Made by a program: the position numbers and the translations under genes. Shown here piece by piece: positions 34,404 to 47,506 of a stretch of DNA of 47,558 nt (position 1 is the stretch's first letter; each line of letters begins with the position of its first letter). Source of the DNA: a virus; the IMG/VR virus record IMGVR_UViG_3300027759_000134, positions 1 through 47,558 of that record. One strand, given 5' to 3'. The notes beneath the pieces are model-generated. The model saw only the letters and a program-made list of their open reading frames with translations, did no database searches and was not told the DNA's origin.

Positions 34404-34850
34404 TTACTTAGTTGGTTTACGAACGGAAATGGCGTACTCTGTCATAGAGTTAAGCCCTGCGGGAACTAGACTGGGATTCTCTTCCAAGAACGTAGCCATG
34501 TTGGTCTGCGCAATACGCTTCTCCAACAAGTCCAACGCATCGTGTTCTTTGATGAACTCTTTGAACGAGTCCCAGTCCTGTGTGTTGTAGCGTGTCTTGG
34601 TAGACAGCACTACGGTGCCTTGGTCGGTGCGAACACTTGATACACCAAGCTTAAGCATCTGATCTTTGAGCGCGATCTTCACAACGTCTTGTTGACGTTT
34701 GATTTCTTCAATCTGTGTCTCGAACTCTTGAGTCAGCTCTTGTACGCGTGACTGCATCTTGCGGTACACCTTCGCCAACTTGTCCATAGGGACAATGACC
34801 TCTGTCGGCGACTCCTGAGGAGCAGGCTCCTCGTCATCTATATCTAGCAT
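34404..34850 (-). CDS. Coiled-coil protein, Gam/nuclease-inhibitor-like, tentative
   Basis: A 148-residue protein. Residues about 22-65 form a charged coiled coil (LAKVYRKMQSRVQELTQEF). The second half is a compact domain with LGVSSVRTDQGTVVLSTKTRY, DWDSFKEFIKEHDALDLLEKR and VPAGLNSM. Similar architecture is known to me from small proteins in phage replication clusters, sometimes annotated as Gam-like host-nuclease inhibitors or DNA-end-binding proteins. That link is weak. It is the first gene after the promoter/operator at 34876-34918, and AAGGAG is present eight bases before the ATG. It probably starts a transcript including the SSB-like and primase genes. Confidence 0.6.
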   Translation of the reverse strand: MLDIDDEEPAPQESPTEVIVPMDKLAKVYRKMQSRVQELTQEFETQIEEIKRQQDVVKIALKDQMLKLGVSSVRTDQGTVVLSTKTRYNTQDWDSFKEFIKEHDALDLLEKRIAQTNMATFLEENPSLVPAGLNSMTEYAISVRKPTK

Positions 34851-34875: not shown

Positions 34876-34918
34876 TGTCAATGGTTTGACAGCATAGCAC
34901 GACTGAATTGATTTGCAA
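34876..34918 (-). promoter_or_regulatory. Promoter with palindromic operator, site A
   Basis: On the minus strand TTGCAA (34913-34918) and TATGCT (34891-34896, preceded by TG one base upstream) form -35 and extended -10 elements with a 16-base spacer. Immediately downstream lies TGTCAA-N4-TTGACA (34876-34891), a perfect palindrome with 6-bp arms. The arrangement fits a repressible promoter for the gene at 34404-34850. Elements are matched by eye. Confidence 0.55.
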
Positions 34919-41139: not shown

Positions 41140-41427
41140 CTAGTTAAAGTTTTCTTTGGGTGGTGCGTCGAGGACGTTTAAGAAGCCGAAAAAATCGTTT
41201 GCCGCCAACATGAGTTGCGACGCCTCCATCTCATTACAGTTTAGGGTAACGACTCCTGCAATGTTGTCTTCAGCGCGGCCAACAATGACCACACCCTGTG
41301 CTTTGCCTTCTCCATAACACATCACCAACTTGTGTATGAGTAGCTTGAAGTGCACCTGTTCTTCGTCTGACATAGCTTGTACACGCTCGTGCAGTTCAGC
41401 GTCCGTCATTGGGTACTCGTCGTTCAT
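41140..41427 (-). CDS. Hypothetical protein, replication block
   Basis: A 95-residue acidic protein of unknown function. Helical N-terminus (MTDAELHERVQAMSDEEQVH), then KLVMCYGEGKAQGVVIVGR and VVTLNCNEMEASQLMLAAN. The pattern recurs in other aquatic phages according to my memory, without function. Overlaps the VRR-NUC gene as ATGA and is followed ten bases later by the 135-residue gene, so it is inside the same operon. Confidence 0.65.
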   Translation of the reverse strand: MNDEYPMTDAELHERVQAMSDEEQVHFKLLIHKLVMCYGEGKAQGVVIVGRAEDNIAGVVTLNCNEMEASQLMLAANDFFGFLNVLDAPPKENFN

Positions 41428-41705
41428 GATATTACCTCCTTCAAAGTATGTAAGTTGTCTTCATTGATGACAACGGCTGTCCCCCCTGCGCCACGTATGC
41501 GGCTTAGATGAGACTCTTGTAGCGCGGTGGTTTTACCCTTCCCCGCTTTCGCTTCGATGCCGACGAACTTGCCGCCAGCGCACACGAGAAAGTCAGGCAC
41601 CCCTGAGTTGCCGTATCCTGTTCCGATGGGCATGGCGTAGTACACGCCTGCCTCATCAAGTAGCTTTCGTATCTTCTTCTTGACTAGTACTTCCGGTGTT
41701 GCCAT
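41424..41705 (-). CDS. VRR-NUC domain nuclease
   Basis: A 93-residue single-domain nuclease. The VRR-NUC pattern is clear: an N-terminal helix (EVLVKKKIRKLLDEAG), GYGNSGVPD38FLV, E51-x-K53 in VGIEAKAG and TTALQESHLSRIRGAGG with Q63. VRR-NUC enzymes act on branched DNA; stand-alone phage forms are proposed Holliday junction resolvases. A near-perfect AGGAGGT site lies before the ATG. It is the first gene after the structured leader at 41706-41872 and probably begins a transcript that includes DNA polymerase. Confidence 0.85.
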   Translation of the reverse strand: MATPEVLVKKKIRKLLDEAGVYYAMPIGTGYGNSGVPDFLVCAGGKFVGIEAKAGKGKTTALQESHLSRIRGAGGTAVVINEDNLHTLKEVIS

Positions 41706-41776: not shown

Positions 41777-41817
41777 TAGTAGTTGGTCATGTATCAAAGG
41801 GTTGACAACAACTACTA
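41777..41817. repeat. 9-bp inverted repeat flanking operator-like site C
   Basis: TAGTAGTTG at 41777-41785 and CAACTACTA at 41809-41817 are perfect inverse copies separated by 23 bases. The spacer contains the operator-like palindrome TATCAA-AGGG-TTGACA. The nested arrangement suggests a protein-binding site rather than chance. Confidence 0.5.
41792..41807. promoter_or_regulatory. Operator-like palindrome, site C (one mismatch)
   Basis: TATCAA-AGGG-TTGACA matches the TGTCAA-N4-TTGACA pattern of sites A and B with one mismatch and the same 4-base centre. It lies about 85 bases upstream of the VRR-NUC start. I could not pick convincing -10 and -35 boxes here, so only a binding site is proposed. 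Confidence 0.4.
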
Positions 41818-41872: not shown

Positions 41873-42040
41873 TCAACCCTCTGAATTCTTTTCGTAATAC
41901 TTCTTGGGCATGGGCGCATGCTTGTCAAGCATCGCACGCAACCATGTACTACCGCCCAACTGTTTTAGAATTGCTTTGTGCCGCGCTGTTAAGCGGAAGT
42001 CGGCACGCTCTAATGGCTCAATCGGTTTTGGTCTTGGCAT
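41873..42040 (-). CDS. Small ribbon-helix-helix-like DNA-binding protein
   Basis: A 55-residue protein in what would otherwise look like a gene gap. It begins MPRPKPIEPLERADFRLT, where residues 12-18 would be the DNA-contacting strand, followed by ARHKAILKQLGGSTWLRAML, two helices with a Gly-Gly turn. The strand-helix-helix order and size fit the Arc/MetJ-type RHH fold. It overlaps the gene at 42018 by 23 bases. The ribosome site is weak (GGGATAT). It ends about 65 bases before operator-like site C and is a second candidate regulator for this arm. Confidence 0.65.
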   Translation of the reverse strand: MPRPKPIEPLERADFRLTARHKAILKQLGGSTWLRAMLDKHAPMPKKYYEKNSEG

Positions 42041-42246: not shown

Positions 42247-42804
42247 TCAACCTCCAAAGATTTTCTTCAAGTAATCATACAACTCGCGTGCTTGCAAGAC
42301 AGTCATGTGTTTGATAACTTCTTCTGGAGTCTTGCCAAACACAATCGTGTTGACGATACGCTTGCCCACGCCTTCGGGTTGTAGCGCGGCAATGCCTGAA
42401 CTCTGTGGCTCGTGGGCATGTGCTTTGGACGCAGGCTTCGCCTTGACAGCAGGCTTCTTTGTGTACTTATGCGCGGCTTTCATTGGGATGTATTCATCTA
42501 CCATTACGCGGTAGCCATGGTTATTATCCCGAGTAGCCAAACCAGCGCGGACAAATTGCGCCATGAGCGCTGTGACTGATGACTCTTTGAAGCCGTGTTT
42601 GATGAGATCACGACTAGCGGCGGCGGCAGTAGTGCCCGGGTGCAACTTGATGTAGTCAAAGGTTACGCGGGTTACGTTGTTCTTAATTTCAAATGCGGGT
42701 CTTTTAGACATGGTTTTTTCCTCGGGTTGTTGAACTGGTTTGTTGGTGGGGGTGGGTTCCCACGACTCGATTGCGTTTTGAAGTGCGGACTTAAGATCAG
42801 GCAT
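42247..42804 (-). CDS. Probable winged-helix DNA-binding protein
   Basis: A 185-residue protein in three parts. Residues about 42-105 look like a winged helix: TRVTFDYIKLHPGTTAAAAS, then LIKHGFKESSVTALMAQFVR and the wing GLATRDNNHGYRV. A Lys/Ala/Pro linker follows (about 118-135). The C-terminal 40 residues (NTIVFGKTPEEVIKHM, VLQARELYDYLKKIFGG) form a short helical tail that recurs in phage proteins. The N-terminal 30 residues are Pro-rich. Likely a regulator or replication-initiation accessory; target unknown. An AAGGAA site precedes the ATG. Confidence 0.6.
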   Translation of the reverse strand: MPDLKSALQNAIESWEPTPTNKPVQQPEEKTMSKRPAFEIKNNVTRVTFDYIKLHPGTTAAAASRDLIKHGFKESSVTALMAQFVRAGLATRDNNHGYRVMVDEYIPMKAAHKYTKKPAVKAKPASKAHAHEPQSSGIAALQPEGVGKRIVNTIVFGKTPEEVIKHMTVLQARELYDYLKKIFGG

Positions 42805-42989: not shown

Positions 42990-43877
42990 TTAGAAGTTAA
43001 ACTTGTCGAGGATTGCATCGACGTTCTTCTTGACGTCTTGACGGATAGCCTCGTTCTTGCGGAGGTCAGCAGGCGTAACGCCTACAAGTAACTGCTCCAA
43101 CTGACTACGTGCAGTCTCAAGCGTTGTATCGTTTGTCACGTTCAATGCCTTGGTGAGATCACACAACTCAAGCGCACCATCGACAAGCGTGTCGTGGAAG
43201 CGCCTTTGCTTAGCCTCACCGCCTACATAGTCAGTCGTCAATCTGTCTGACATACGTTTGAGGTGGGTGCTAAGTCTCTCACGCACATCTGCCATAGCAG
43301 AGTCGATGCGTTCTTGTGTCAGAGATTCAAGGCGAGCCTTGAGTTCTGCCTGTGCTTGGTTACCCACGTCTACACGGAAGTCACCCGATGATGGGACAGG
43401 CATGTAGTTAACGCGGAATGAGAACTTGGTCATGATCTCATTAGCGGTAGGGTAGTCATCTCTCCTGAACATATCGCCGAGAGCCAATGCCTGCGCCGTG
43501 ATAAGCGTAGGGTAGATAGCCACGAAGGACTTGACGATGGCCTCCATCTCTTCCTCGAACTCATTCATGCGCTCGGTGAACTTCATGAAGTTGACAGTCG
43601 GGAGAAGACGCAGACCTGAGTCAGACCAAGGCGCTGTGTTGTCGTATACGAATTGACGTGCACGACTGACCGCTTGTTGGATGACGTCCAACTCGGTGCG
43701 ACCTGCGAGCAGGTGCTTGTTGACACGGGCGGCATCCTTTGCCCCCGCGTTCTTGCTTGCCACTACCTCATCGGTAGTAGTCTTGTCTAGCTTGCGTGCT
43801 GTCCACACAGAAGCGTTGAACTCCACAAGCATAGCGCATGTGTCGATGTTGTGGCGAGGTGTACTAGTTGTGTTCAT
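42990..43877 (-). CDS. Helical protein of the AAA+/VWA module (DUF3150-like, tentative)
   Basis: A 295-residue mostly helical protein. There is a short N-terminal polar part, then LLAGRTELDVIQQAVSRARQ (about residues 55-75), a central helix pair (FTERMNEFEEEMEAIVKSF) and a long charged helix (QAELKARLESLTQERIDSAM). There are no cysteines in key positions and no catalytic motif. From memory, proteins like this (DUF3150-type) travel with CobS/MoxR-type AAA+ ATPases and VWA partners in prophages and mobile elements. Here the ATPase and VWA genes are just upstream, with a 73-residue gene between. It probably serves as substrate or scaffold of that machine. Confidence 0.6.
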   Translation of the reverse strand: MNTTSTPRHNIDTCAMLVEFNASVWTARKLDKTTTDEVVASKNAGAKDAARVNKHLLAGRTELDVIQQAVSRARQFVYDNTAPWSDSGLRLLPTVNFMKFTERMNEFEEEMEAIVKSFVAIYPTLITAQALALGDMFRRDDYPTANEIMTKFSFRVNYMPVPSSGDFRVDVGNQAQAELKARLESLTQERIDSAMADVRERLSTHLKRMSDRLTTDYVGGEAKQRRFHDTLVDGALELCDLTKALNVTNDTTLETARSQLEQLLVGVTPADLRKNEAIRQDVKKNVDAILDKFNF

Positions 43878-44085
43878 GATTAACTCCTACTATATAAAGG
43901 TCTAAGATTACGGATTCCATTTGTTGCAGTTCCTCTTCGTTGATGTCATCAAACCAAACTTCGTAGACTGTGTCAGAGCCTCGTTTAATTTGGATTGATG
44001 CACGCTTGCGAACAGAGTCGTTAGGCCACCATCTAGAGTGATATGCAATGGGTGGTGGTACAGGTTTCTCTTTCTTCTTACGCAT
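43864..44085 (-). CDS. Small hypothetical protein within the AAA+/VWA module
   Basis: A 73-residue protein. Basic, Pro-rich N-terminus (RKKKEKPVPPPIAYHSRWW), then a strand-rich part (RASIQIKRGSDTVYEVWF) and an acidic helix (DDINEEELQQMESVILDLY). Its ATG overlaps the TAA of the ATPase gene as TAATG, and its stop overlaps the next gene by 14 bases, so it is translationally tied to both. Unrecognised; a small adaptor for the ATPase is possible. Confidence 0.65.
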   Translation of the reverse strand: MRKKKEKPVPPPIAYHSRWWPNDSVRKRASIQIKRGSDTVYEVWFDDINEEELQQMESVILDLYIVGVNHEHN

Positions 44086-45209
44086 TACTTGGTTGAGAAA
44101 AAGATTTTGTGCTCGGCTAACATGCGACCGAACTCATTGATCGTAGCGAACAAAGCCACACGCTGACTTGTTGCTACTGTGTTGCAGAAGATAGACTGCA
44201 TCTCTGCACGCATACGCCATACGTACTTGACGATGGCTTCTGCCTCTGTCCTGTCCGCTACGCGAGTAACGAACTGGAATACCTGAATCAACTGCGCCGT
44301 AGGGTTGTCGGACAGCGGTGCTGTGTCAGGTGATTTGATAACACGCGAGTACTCGCAGATCTCACGACCGAAGCGAATGAACGATGCCAATGCCTCTGCC
44401 GTAGTAGCACCGACAGTACCCGTGAGAGCCGCCTCAAGTGTCTCGTCGTCAAGCACACCCAGACCCGCATCGAGGATGTCACTAGCGGCAACCAATGAGC
44501 GAGGTGTAGCGTATGCAAGTTGCATAGACTTGGGGTTGAAGATGAAGCCGTTGTCTTTGGACAAGTCCTTGCCCTCGAACATACCGCCCTTCTCGTAGTC
44601 AAGGAACGATTGCATGACGCGTGGCTCGTTGCTAACGAAAGCAATAATCATTGGATTGACGCCATTGTCAGTAGCCCACTTGACCCACTCGTCACAGCTA
44701 GGCTTACGCATCTTGACGAACACAAGACGATTGCGTAGGTGAGCCTGAATAGAATCACCAAGACCCTCGACAGATAGGTTGGTAAAGCACACAACCACGC
44801 TACCCTCAGGCATGCTTAGGTTACCGACTCTGCGCTCATAGATGATCGGAGCCAATACGTTCTTGATGAACTGTGGTGCCTTGGCAATCTCATCAAGACC
44901 TACGAGGATAGGCTTGGAGTTGTTGACACCGAGTTGATTGAACGCGCTAACACCGAAGCGCTCATTGGGTAACTCACGAGACACGCCATTCTCACGATCG
45001 AGGTCAGGCATCCACACAGAGCCATCAGATAACTGAGTACAGTCGATAGGTTGCACAGCGATGTGGTCAGCAAACTTGGGTAGCTTGCGCAGTGCATGGA
45101 AGAGGGCAGTCTTACCGATGCCGTTCTCACCCTCCACAATTACTGTGCGCTTGTCACCGACAGCGGCAACGAGGGAAACGACTTGAGATGCAGATAAAAA
45201 GTTGTTCAT
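44085..45209 (-). CDS. AAA+ ATPase, MoxR/CobS-like
   Basis: A 374-residue ATPase. The ATG at 45209 is used rather than a TTG five codons earlier; GGAG lies nine bases upstream. Walker A is G27ENGIGKT34 with K33; Walker B is ILVGLDEIAKAP; a sensor-1-like VVVCFTNLS follows, and an Arg-finger region lies near AHLRNRLVFV. Insert and lid segments resemble MoxR/CobS proteins, which pair with VWA-domain partners as chaperone-like or chelatase-like machines. The VWA gene directly upstream (26-base gap) supports this pairing. The C-terminal third is helical (QSIFCNTVATSQRVALFAT). Confidence 0.82.
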   Translation of the reverse strand: MNNFLSASQVVSLVAAVGDKRTVIVEGENGIGKTALFHALRKLPKFADHIAVQPIDCTQLSDGSVWMPDLDRENGVSRELPNERFGVSAFNQLGVNNSKPILVGLDEIAKAPQFIKNVLAPIIYERRVGNLSMPEGSVVVCFTNLSVEGLGDSIQAHLRNRLVFVKMRKPSCDEWVKWATDNGVNPMIIAFVSNEPRVMQSFLDYEKGGMFEGKDLSKDNGFIFNPKSMQLAYATPRSLVAASDILDAGLGVLDDETLEAALTGTVGATTAEALASFIRFGREICEYSRVIKSPDTAPLSDNPTAQLIQVFQFVTRVADRTEAEAIVKYVWRMRAEMQSIFCNTVATSQRVALFATINEFGRMLAEHKIFFSTK

Positions 45210-45235
45210 GATAAGGTTCTCCAAAAGTTAAAAGA

Positions 45236-46441
45236 TTAAACAGAAATACGCAGGACTTTGCCATGAGTAGGAACGAATGACTCGTTCTCTACTACACCCC
45301 ACAGAGATGGCATTGGGGTATTCGGGGTATCGCAACCAAGGTAGCCGTCTGTCAACCAGACGATTGCCCTAGCGTCGATCTTGTGTTCGCGGATGTAGTC
45401 AACGACAACATCGGGAGTTGTGCCGCCACCACCCTTGGGACTCATGAGTGATGTGATCTGCTCGTAGTCAGCAGGCTTGAATGATTGATCGCCACACACA
45501 TCGGTGTCCCACCACAACACACGCACACCCGCAGGCTTGGTGATGTTGCAGATACGAGCGATCTCACCGAACAACAAGCGGTAGTACGGATACATAGAGC
45601 CCGATGTGTCGACAGCAAGAATCAACTCACCGACAGACTCGGTGAAGTGTGATGGCATAACGAAGCCCGATGCAAGCAAGCGTTTGTTGGGAGGACAGAA
45701 GCGTGAGTTGTCGTCGCCCGCAGAGATAGAACTAATCCACTCTTGAAGCGCTTGCTTCCAATCTGTCGTGCGTTCCTTGGCTGTGCCTAAGATGTCACGA
45801 CCACCGGCTTCCTTACCCGCAAGCTTACGTGCAAGTATCTCGCCTTGACGATTGGCATCGTCGATCTGCTTGCCTAGCTTGTCTTGCTCGACTGGGTTGT
45901 CATCGAACTCACCATCCTCATGTGCATCGAGGGGCTCATCGAAGTCACTACCGCCATCACCATCGCCCTTGTCACCCTTCTCAGGTTCCTTGCGACCACT
46001 CTTGAGTAAGTCATTGAGTACCTGAGGGAAAGACCAACCGAAGTACTTGCGATCAATCAGCAACGACTCGGTAGGACGCTCGACGAACTTGAAGTCGGGG
46101 TCCATCTCCTCGATCAATGCGTTGACCACATAGTCCTGTGCTACGTTGGTGAGCTTAGGCATCTTGCGTGTGTACTGCTTGAACAAGATGCAATGCTTGA
46201 GGGCTACGTGAAAGTTCTCATGCAGAACTAAGTAGCGCATCTGCTTGCGGTTGAGGGGCTTGATGAACTCAGCGCCGTACTTCTTGTCACGCCCGTTGGT
46301 AGCGGCTGTTGGTATCTTGTCTGACACCTCGCTCTTACCTAGCATGATGACGCCTGACAGCAAGGCGAACTTGGGGTGCCGCATACAGTCAATGTTGGCG
46401 GCTTGTACTCTCTGATTGAGAGTCATCTTCTCATAGCTCAT
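45236..46441 (-). CDS. VWA-domain protein with N-terminal zincin-like motif (DUF2201-type)
   Basis: A 401-residue protein in three parts. The N-terminal domain contains H74-E75-N-F-H78 in YLVLHENFHVALKH, a zincin signature. A low-complexity acidic/Gly linker lies at about residues 150-200 (KGDKGDGDGGSDFDEP). The C-terminal VWA-like domain has the metal-ion site D278-T-S280-G-S282, T341/T342 in GGGGTTPDV and D365 in LTDG. The combination matches VWA-like proteins with an N-terminal metallopeptidase-like domain (DUF2201), partners of MoxR-type ATPases. GGAG lies before the ATG, and a promoter with palindromic operator (46469-46503) is about 30-60 bases upstream. Confidence 0.82.
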   Translation of the reverse strand: MSYEKMTLNQRVQAANIDCMRHPKFALLSGVIMLGKSEVSDKIPTAATNGRDKKYGAEFIKPLNRKQMRYLVLHENFHVALKHCILFKQYTRKMPKLTNVAQDYVVNALIEEMDPDFKFVERPTESLLIDRKYFGWSFPQVLNDLLKSGRKEPEKGDKGDGDGGSDFDEPLDAHEDGEFDDNPVEQDKLGKQIDDANRQGEILARKLAGKEAGGRDILGTAKERTTDWKQALQEWISSISAGDDNSRFCPPNKRLLASGFVMPSHFTESVGELILAVDTSGSMYPYYRLLFGEIARICNITKPAGVRVLWWDTDVCGDQSFKPADYEQITSLMSPKGGGGTTPDVVVDYIREHKIDARAIVWLTDGYLGCDTPNTPMPSLWGVVENESFVPTHGKVLRISV

Positions 46442-46468: not shown

Positions 46469-46503
46469 ATTATAGCATAGGTTGTCAAAGACTTGACAAC
46501 CTA
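46469..46503 (-). promoter_or_regulatory. Promoter with palindromic operator, site B
   Basis: On the minus strand a consensus -10 TATAAT (46469-46474) is preceded by TGC (46475-46477), an extended -10. Directly upstream lies a perfect palindrome with 11-bp arms, TAGGTTGTCAA (46478-46488) and TTGACAACCTA (46493-46503), around a 4-base centre. It overlaps the -35 region, so a bound protein would block or recruit polymerase. It would drive the VWA/AAA+ operon. Confidence 0.7.
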
Positions 46504-46522: not shown

Positions 46523-47506
46523 TCAGGTGTGAATGTTAGAACGTGGGTATTCAGAACTTTTAGGGAATTGTTTCACCTCCTCTGGTTTCTTAAGCGAGTT
46601 GCTACCAACGTATTTGTGTATCCTGTCAAGGATGGCACGCCTGAACTCAGGCATCTCGATAGGCTTGGCTAAGTCGTCGACTGTGTTGTCGGTACTGGTG
46701 TTGCGGGTATACCAAGAGCCTTTTATTTGGAAGTCAGGTTGTTCCGTACCGCGCTTGGATGCGATGATGTCGTAGGCTTTCTGACACATCTCAAAGAACA
46801 CGTCGATGTCTTGTTGCCGTGGCTCGGGTGTCTGCCACAACTCTTGCATCGCCATGTAGTATGCGCGGTTGAATCCTTCACCACCGAACCTGCGTCCAAG
46901 ATCGTAGTTAATACTGCACGATGCCCTAAACTCTGGCATACGCATCTGTGCAAGCATGATGTATGGCTCGAAGTGTGCGGCTACCTTGGCCTTGAACTTG
47001 CGGACATCGGTGTCCGCGACCATGCGGTAGTGCGGCGTGTGCTCAGACTCGGGGATAGATAGCTTGCCATCGACAAACACAGCGTCCAAGCTGAACGGCG
47101 TGTTGTTATCACCATCAACCATGAAGTGCTTGGTGTAGATAGGCATGATGACTGAGTCGTCGCTATACAAACCCTCGCTATCGAGTTGCCTGTTGACACC
47201 GAGGTCAACGTACAGCGTGTGCCGCATGAACTGCTGACTTGTCTGCGATGCGTGGCCTTGATACAACCTACGCTCAACGCGCTTGCCGTTCTCTACCTTG
47301 GGCTCGTAGAACCGCGCCATGACTGTCTGATACAGCTTGACGTCGAAGTACTTGCCGTAAGAGTTACTGCCCTCGATGAGCTTGTGTTCTGTGCGCGGCT
47401 TGGGGTCAAGCGGCCTCTCGTTGGGTTGCCATGCACTACTGCGTACTGCCTTGCGAAAGGCGAATGTGCCTAACGCTTCTTCATAATTTCTACATACGTA
47501 TGCCAT
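46523..47506 (-). CDS. Conserved phage protein of unknown function
   Basis: A 327-residue protein I do not recognise. Features: KLIEGSNSYGKYFDVKLYQT (about residues 42-61) with repeated Tyr/Phe, ARFYEPKVENGKRVERRLYQ, a region TSQQFMRHTLYVDLGV, and LGRRFGGEGFNRAYYMAMQE in the second half. The high Tyr/Arg/Lys content suggests nucleic-acid or virion contact. No Walker, nuclease or protease motif is seen. AGGAGT lies before the ATG. It is the first complete minus-strand gene and lies just before promoter B, so it is probably read from a promoter beyond the right edge. Confidence 0.65.
   Translation of the reverse strand: MAYVCRNYEEALGTFAFRKAVRSSAWQPNERPLDPKPRTEHKLIEGSNSYGKYFDVKLYQTVMARFYEPKVENGKRVERRLYQGHASQTSQQFMRHTLYVDLGVNRQLDSEGLYSDDSVIMPIYTKHFMVDGDNNTPFSLDAVFVDGKLSIPESEHTPHYRMVADTDVRKFKAKVAAHFEPYIMLAQMRMPEFRASCSINYDLGRRFGGEGFNRAYYMAMQELWQTPEPRQQDIDVFFEMCQKAYDIIASKRGTEQPDFQIKGSWYTRNTSTDNTVDDLAKPIEMPEFRRAILDRIHKYVGSNSLKKPEEVKQFPKSSEYPRSNIHT

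Follow-up and report, generated by a model that had tools for sequence, protein, structure and literature searches.

The IMG/VR record IMGVR_UViG_3300027759_000134 is an incomplete 47.6-kb contig of a freshwater phage whose relatives reach ~66 kb, and its 47,558 nucleotides were analysed here in full (the window). Four minus-strand open reading frames (ORFs) fill positions 42990-46441, the three large ones encoding, in the order VWA-ATPase-DUF3150, a zincin-VWA protein, a MoxR-type ATPase and a DUF3150-family protein, which we refer to together as the trio. The module shares the minus strand with the replication genes, and the structural genes lie elsewhere on the plus strand. Our comparisons support that the trio behaves as one unit, and in this phage clade it has been exchanged more than once for unrelated cassettes.

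Genes of the module

The zincin-VWA gene (45236-46441, minus strand) encodes a 401-aa protein resembling N4 gp25, which is matched by PHROG 1314 at 2.3e-58 and carries two Pfam domains over their cut-offs: PF13203 (DUF2201_N, ‘putative metallopeptidase’; 2.1e-13, 50.9 bits against a cut-off of 23.2) and, C-terminal to it, PF09967 (DUF2201 VWA; 8.9e-11, 42.4 bits against 26.4). The HENFH motif (residues 74-78) forms part of HExxHxxxxH (74-83) and is followed by NxAxDxxxN (99-107), and the metal-ion-dependent adhesion site (MIDAS) is complete (D278xSxS282, T341, D365). In an eight-member alignment of the window, Schitoviridae, phage G and plasmid proteins (22-67% identical to that of the window), H74, E75, H78, H83, N99, D103, N107, D278, S280, S282, T341 and D365 are invariant, and HExxH, H83, N99, D103, N107 and the MIDAS residues are also invariant across 32 closer relatives, which bears out the N-terminal zincin-like motif and VWA domain of a preliminary description made from the sequence. 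Judged by this conservation, D103 or H83 may be the third zinc ligand. The AlphaFold2 (AF2) model (pLDDT 78.7, pTM 0.51) places HExxH within helix 65-80 and D103 within helix 95-113, and its VWA part resembles the MIDAS domain of midasin (MDN1), with a weaker match to the NorQD VWA. A family profile recovered the minimal zincins MJ1213 and projannalysin, weakly (0.013-0.21). On these residues, we think it somewhat probable that the zincin domain is an active zinc peptidase. The ‘HNH endonuclease’ label of PHROG 1314 was rejected, as Pfam gives a DUF2201 metallopeptidase and VWA and no HNH domain; members of this family (e.g. L003:5932-7137) are often annotated ‘HNH endonuclease’ or ‘homing endonuclease’, a propagated misannotation. 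In a homologue on a Paraburkholderia dioscoreae plasmid (L131:8914-10191), LKVMQ replaces HExxH and the conserved Asp is gone, the rest of the operon being intact, which makes it a naturally occurring form with a dead zinc site.

The second gene (44085-45209, minus strand) encodes a 374-aa AAA+ ATPase of the MoxR/midasin/NorQ clade, similar to N4 gp24 and matched by PHROG 1297 at 1.2e-38; it probably starts at the ATG at 45209 and not at the listed TTG at 45224. By itself the window sequence scores under the Pfam AAA cut-offs. Alignment reveals a Walker A (GENGIGKT), a Walker B (LVGLDE), N144 as sensor 1 and R161 as arginine finger, and the family profile retrieves midasin (3e-38), ClpB and NorQ (9e-8) from the PDB; with midasin and NorQ nearest and a VWA gene adjoining, the MoxR-type assignment made earlier is confirmed.

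The third large gene (42990-43877, minus strand) encodes a 295-aa protein of mostly long helices with short strands. Its match to PF11348 (DUF3150; 6.9e-4, 19.4 bits) lies under the Pfam cut-off of 24.9, and nothing at E <= 0.001 was found in the PDB by sequence or by fold. Membership of the DUF3150 family, as first proposed for this helical protein, is nevertheless supported, because the AF2 model (pLDDT 82.9) resembles in fold a viral DUF3150 protein in BFVD (A0A6J7WV52; TM 0.80, E 1.6e-19); in sequence it also matches the annotated DUF3150 protein of phage MinM2 (9e-23). A stretch of a Ca. Manganitrophus plasmid (L133:5872-8894) holds an AAA ATPase, DUF1257, DUF2997 and DUF3150 genes and no VWA gene, a further setting for this family.

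The fourth ORF (43864-44085, minus strand), between the ATPase and DUF3150 genes, encodes 73 aa and is optional. The preliminary description counted it as a linker component of a four-gene module, of which the three large genes stand and the linker falls: outside the window it occurs only in four contigs of close relatives (L007-L010, 92% identity), it does not match the 90-aa protein that MinM2 has in the equivalent position, and the large genes abut directly in most relatives, which rules it out as a core subunit. The gene overlaps reported for the module, TAATG (1 base) and 14 bases, are both present in the sequence.

The three large genes behave as one unit

Scans of IMG/VR with the DUF3150 and VWA proteins recovered >100 loci, which share contigs and do not count as independent. 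In this phage clade the three large genes lie together wherever the contig is long enough and are split only at contig ends, in any of three orders (VWA-ATPase-DUF3150, ATPase-VWA-DUF3150 and ATPase-DUF3150-VWA). Such changes of order are the stronger evidence of a unit, because plain synteny does not explain them. With DNA polymerase (polA) as an anchor, 29 loci had at least 5.5 kb upstream: 15 carried all three genes, 14 carried none and none carried a partial set. Loss or shuffling without co-occurrence was thus not seen among close relatives, and the reading as one unit, first made from gene order and overlaps, is supported for the three large genes. A fusion of DUF3150 and VWA (L137, a Pseudomonadales metagenome-assembled genome) was discarded as evidence of contact, being an internal-deletion remnant without HExxH or the MIDAS DxSxS.

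A scan of genome contigs for distant relatives gave two loci only. In 14 of 399 sampled Pseudomonadota genomes a DUF2201_N match exceeded the cut-off, and at the 11 strong loci (E <= 1e-24) the ATPase was next door every time (11/11) and DUF3150 once (1/11); the ATPase and zincin-VWA protein are therefore the cellular core, which plasmid and phage versions extend with DUF3150 as a third part. In MoxR-VWA systems such as RavA-ViaA, NorQ-NorD, midasin and the p618-p892 pair of the archaeal virus ATV, an ATPase ring and a MIDAS-bearing VWA partner remodel protein. By analogy with these, the ATPase and VWA protein very probably form a complex.

Exchange at the slot

The trio occupies a slot that adjoins the replication genes and precedes a gene of the 42247-42804 type. 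All 29 polA-anchored relatives have this slot filled: by the trio in 15, by an Amidoligase_2 (PF12224) gene with a class-II glutamine amidotransferase-like (glutaminase) gene in 11, and by a Zn-ribbon-like gene with an M20/M28-like peptidase gene in three. Relatives in which the trio is replaced have polymerases 76-80% identical, and trio and amidoligase co-occurred at none of the polA-anchored loci. Mapped onto the polymerase tree, the amidoligase label requires at least two changes and the slot types nine altogether; the exchange thus happened more than once. That every alternative acts on peptide bonds is a suggestive shared theme. This all-or-nothing exchange among close relatives provides natural comparison pairs.

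The amidoligase-glutaminase pair of the sister phages (L250:2830-6139, also L228, L241, L263, L265 and L270) is a possible peptide-ligation system. In the peptidase cassette (L272:3035-5578, L236:2297-5187, L269:2250-4681) the Zn-ribbon-like protein, of unknown family, is followed by the M20/M28-like peptidase (phrog_4191). Strict mutual exclusion of this cassette and the trio was rejected, since the more distant L080, L140 and L172 have the two together, with the cassette directly upstream of the trio.

Relatives in phages, plasmids and conflict systems

The core pair of ATPase and zincin-VWA protein is already known (PHROG 1297 and 1314), whereas we found no earlier description of the ternary version in this phage clade, of its exchange as a unit or of its independence from virion genes, and the literature searched contained no mention of DUF3150. 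In N4-like phages (Schitoviridae) gp24 and gp25 are core genes (PMC4193335, PMC2784036) transcribed in the middle phase (PMC4193335); they belong to the same ATPase and DUF2201 zincin-VWA families and are likewise neighbours in an early/middle region. Unlike the window, the N4-like phage Presley has no DUF3150 match near the pair and an unrelated 174-aa gene in between, and the pair is universal in N4-like phages but exchangeable in the clade of the window. A 75-kb Acinetobacter baumannii record deposited as a ‘plasmid’ (NZ_CP110465.1), of N4-like size and with an N4-like zincin-VWA gene, may instead be a phage. Jumbo phages also pair MoxR with a VWA protein bearing an N-terminal metallopeptidase domain (PMC7824862), although no DUF3150 partner is described there, and a further MoxR pair is reported from phage 0305phi8-36 (PMC2147016). 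In Synechococcus phage MinM2 and Planktothrix phage Pag-Yong1 a MoxR ATPase, DUF3150 and a VWA-like gene similarly cluster, but in the order ATPase-90 aa-DUF3150-three small genes-VWA and at ~22-28% identity.

DUF3150 relatives (27-33% identity) occur on 43 plasmid records, mostly of Burkholderiales; 26 plasmid records have a VWA match, at least 19 of which are also in the DUF3150 list. At the five plasmid loci inspected, DUF3150 adjoins a DUF2201-VWA gene, the ATPase precedes them or is not far off, and the neighbours are genes for conjugation, PRTRC, primase or partition. Plasmids of Burkholderiales and Rhodovastum (Acetobacteraceae) share with the window the three families in one operon and the DUF2201-type VWA, but in the order ATPase-DUF3150-VWA and with DUF3150 27-34% identical. 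Plasmid pCAR1 (ORF101-103) likewise has ATPase, DUF3150 and VWA in one operon, there ordered AAA-DUF3150-VWA with a NorD-like VWA and no DUF2201; its ORF100-103 are conserved in R478, Rts1, SXT and R391, with a suggested role in transfer (PMC2642839). MoxR-vWA ternary conflict systems (PMC7159879) also add a third component to a MoxR and vWA core, namely VMAP, inactive STAND, FtsH or a beta-propeller, where the window has DUF3150; Pfam found none of these four in the module genes, and no effector domain on the VWA C-terminus.

Operator, promoter and candidate regulators

Overlapping the module promoter is a perfect palindrome, TAGGTTGTCAA-AGAC-TTGACAACCTA, with 11-bp arms (46478-46503); no other inverted repeat in the window combines perfect arms of at least 9 bp with a loop of at most 8, and chance would yield an 18-base version 0.03 times. 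It overlaps the -35 and spacer of the putative promoter, whose -35-like TTGTCA falls inside the first arm and is separated by 19 bp, a long spacing, from a -10-like TATAAT (46469-46474, minus strand) that is conserved in alignable relatives. The palindrome is kept upstream of whichever gene leads, in VWA-first and ATPase-first relatives, and changes in one arm are often mirrored in the other.

The palindrome was first described as an operator dedicated to the module; it is real, but its copies rule out the dedication. A second core, TGTCAA-N4-TTGACA (34876-34891, 0 mismatches), lies upstream of 34404-34850 and has equivalents in L214 and looser ones in trio-less loci, and a third, weaker site (41792-41807, 1 mismatch) lies upstream of a VRR/Hjc-type nuclease gene (41424-41705). 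In trio-less relatives the palindrome immediately precedes the 42247-type gene and also occurs close to the 34404-type gene. Because of these copies, the palindrome is best read from its distribution as a site of a phage regulon.

The distal flank of the slot encodes a 185-aa protein (42247-42804, minus strand), winged-helix-like by eye and with no support from Pfam or other domain libraries, that is conserved beside the trio, amidoligase and peptidase variants and is by position a candidate regulator. A 55-aa protein (41873-42040, minus strand), ribbon-helix-helix-like by eye, is an alternative candidate for binding the palindrome.

Function of the trio

The explanation towards which we lean, if only slightly, is an exchangeable AAA+ machine of mobile-element type, a ternary unfoldase resembling a peptidase and directed against a host or shared target. 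We infer complex formation, proteolysis, timing and target as its parts. The MoxR/midasin-clade ring would pull on or remodel a protein substrate, with the VWA protein as MIDAS co-chaperone; the zincin fused in front of it means that the substrate is perhaps also cut, and DUF3150 could be a substrate adaptor or scaffold peculiar to plasmid and phage versions. One palindrome-regulated, sigma70-like promoter would drive the module and genes adjoining the replication cluster, and the replication-gene neighbourhood and the transcription of N4 gp24/gp25 in the middle phase suggest, by analogy, early/middle expression of the trio. The target may be the host's or one shared with mobile elements, the purpose probably being takeover or counter-defence, and the whole unit could be exchanged for other peptide-bond enzymes. 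That plasmids carry the trio, that it is swapped whole and that it does not track the virion genes all speak for a host or shared target, and on balance we place the target on the host side.

Several findings weigh against this explanation. In N4-like phages the pair belongs strictly to the core (PMC4193335), which is not how an accessory counter-defence gene typically behaves, and the peptide-acting slot partners are suggestive only. The P. dioscoreae module has been kept despite the loss of HExxH and the conserved Asp, so zinc-site catalysis may, to judge from that homologue, be dispensable. Mirror-tree co-evolution of the trio was dropped as not specific once a VRR control was included, the partial correlation being 0.66 for DUF3150-VRR against 0.72 for VWA-DUF3150.

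Of the two roles first envisaged, takeover or anti-defence and assembly chaperone, the former fits better. In its specific form, where a defence protein of the host is the substrate that the complex would unfold or cleave and the slot would be a counter-defence island, we hold it possible though doubtful: unrelated cassettes are swapped at one locus among close relatives and the trio rides on conjugative plasmids that face the same defences, but PADLOC gave no specific model match to the module, only weak generic ATPase hits, and the universality of the pair in N4-like phages counts against it.

A protein-processing slot, where three unrelated machines make or break peptide bonds in one host pathway and the trio is an ATP-driven metalloprotease steered by DUF3150 to a host target that plasmids share, seems to us unlikely. 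A similarly low probability attaches to a virion-assembly role, with the ATPase-VWA pair folding or trimming some structural protein. Such a role was proposed for the MoxR and metallopeptidase-VWA pair of group 2.2 jumbo phages (PMC7824862), the ATV pair p618-p892 functions in the development of the tail (review PMC4124505), and N4-like RPP1 has some of its structural genes close to gp24/25 (PMC4193335). However, a dedicated chaperone should follow its client, yet trio presence ignores virion similarity: the 652-aa virion protein of the window (phrog_3287) has its nearest counterpart, 80% identical, in the trio-less G418, against 65% in G007, 62-64% in G003, 51-57% in G001/G005 and 43-49% in G010, all trio-bearing, and the C-terminal part of a 2708-aa protein is 61-64% identical in the trio-less G417, G421 and G415 and 30-37% in trio-bearing records. 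Recombination between genome arms could blur this comparison, or the client might be another virion protein. The same trio also sits on plasmids, which have no virions, and the module is placed with the minus-strand replication genes, away from the plus-strand structural genes. Virion assembly is thus disfavoured in this clade on sequence comparison; as the trio does not follow the virion genes, the published idea loses weight here and attention shifts to the host side. A machine of NorQ-NorD, CobS-CobT or CoxD-CoxE type that inserts metal or a cofactor into a metalloenzyme, its zincin part binding metal and not cutting, is quite improbable: NorQ and the VWA of NorQD count among the closest relatives of solved structure and the pCAR1 trio has a NorD-like VWA, but the loci examined have no candidate metalloenzyme or chelatase large subunit beside the module, HExxH+D is a peptidase-type site and the slot partners are peptide enzymes.

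These results concern ATPase/VWA pairs that are core in N4-like phages and also present in jumbo phages and plasmids, and which are often mislabelled as HNH endonucleases.

Gene upstream of the module

Directly upstream of the module, a 327-aa gene (46523-47506, minus strand) has no Pfam, PHROG or NCBIfam match and was not detected in trio-less loci; it is kept in trio-bearing relatives (24-82%).

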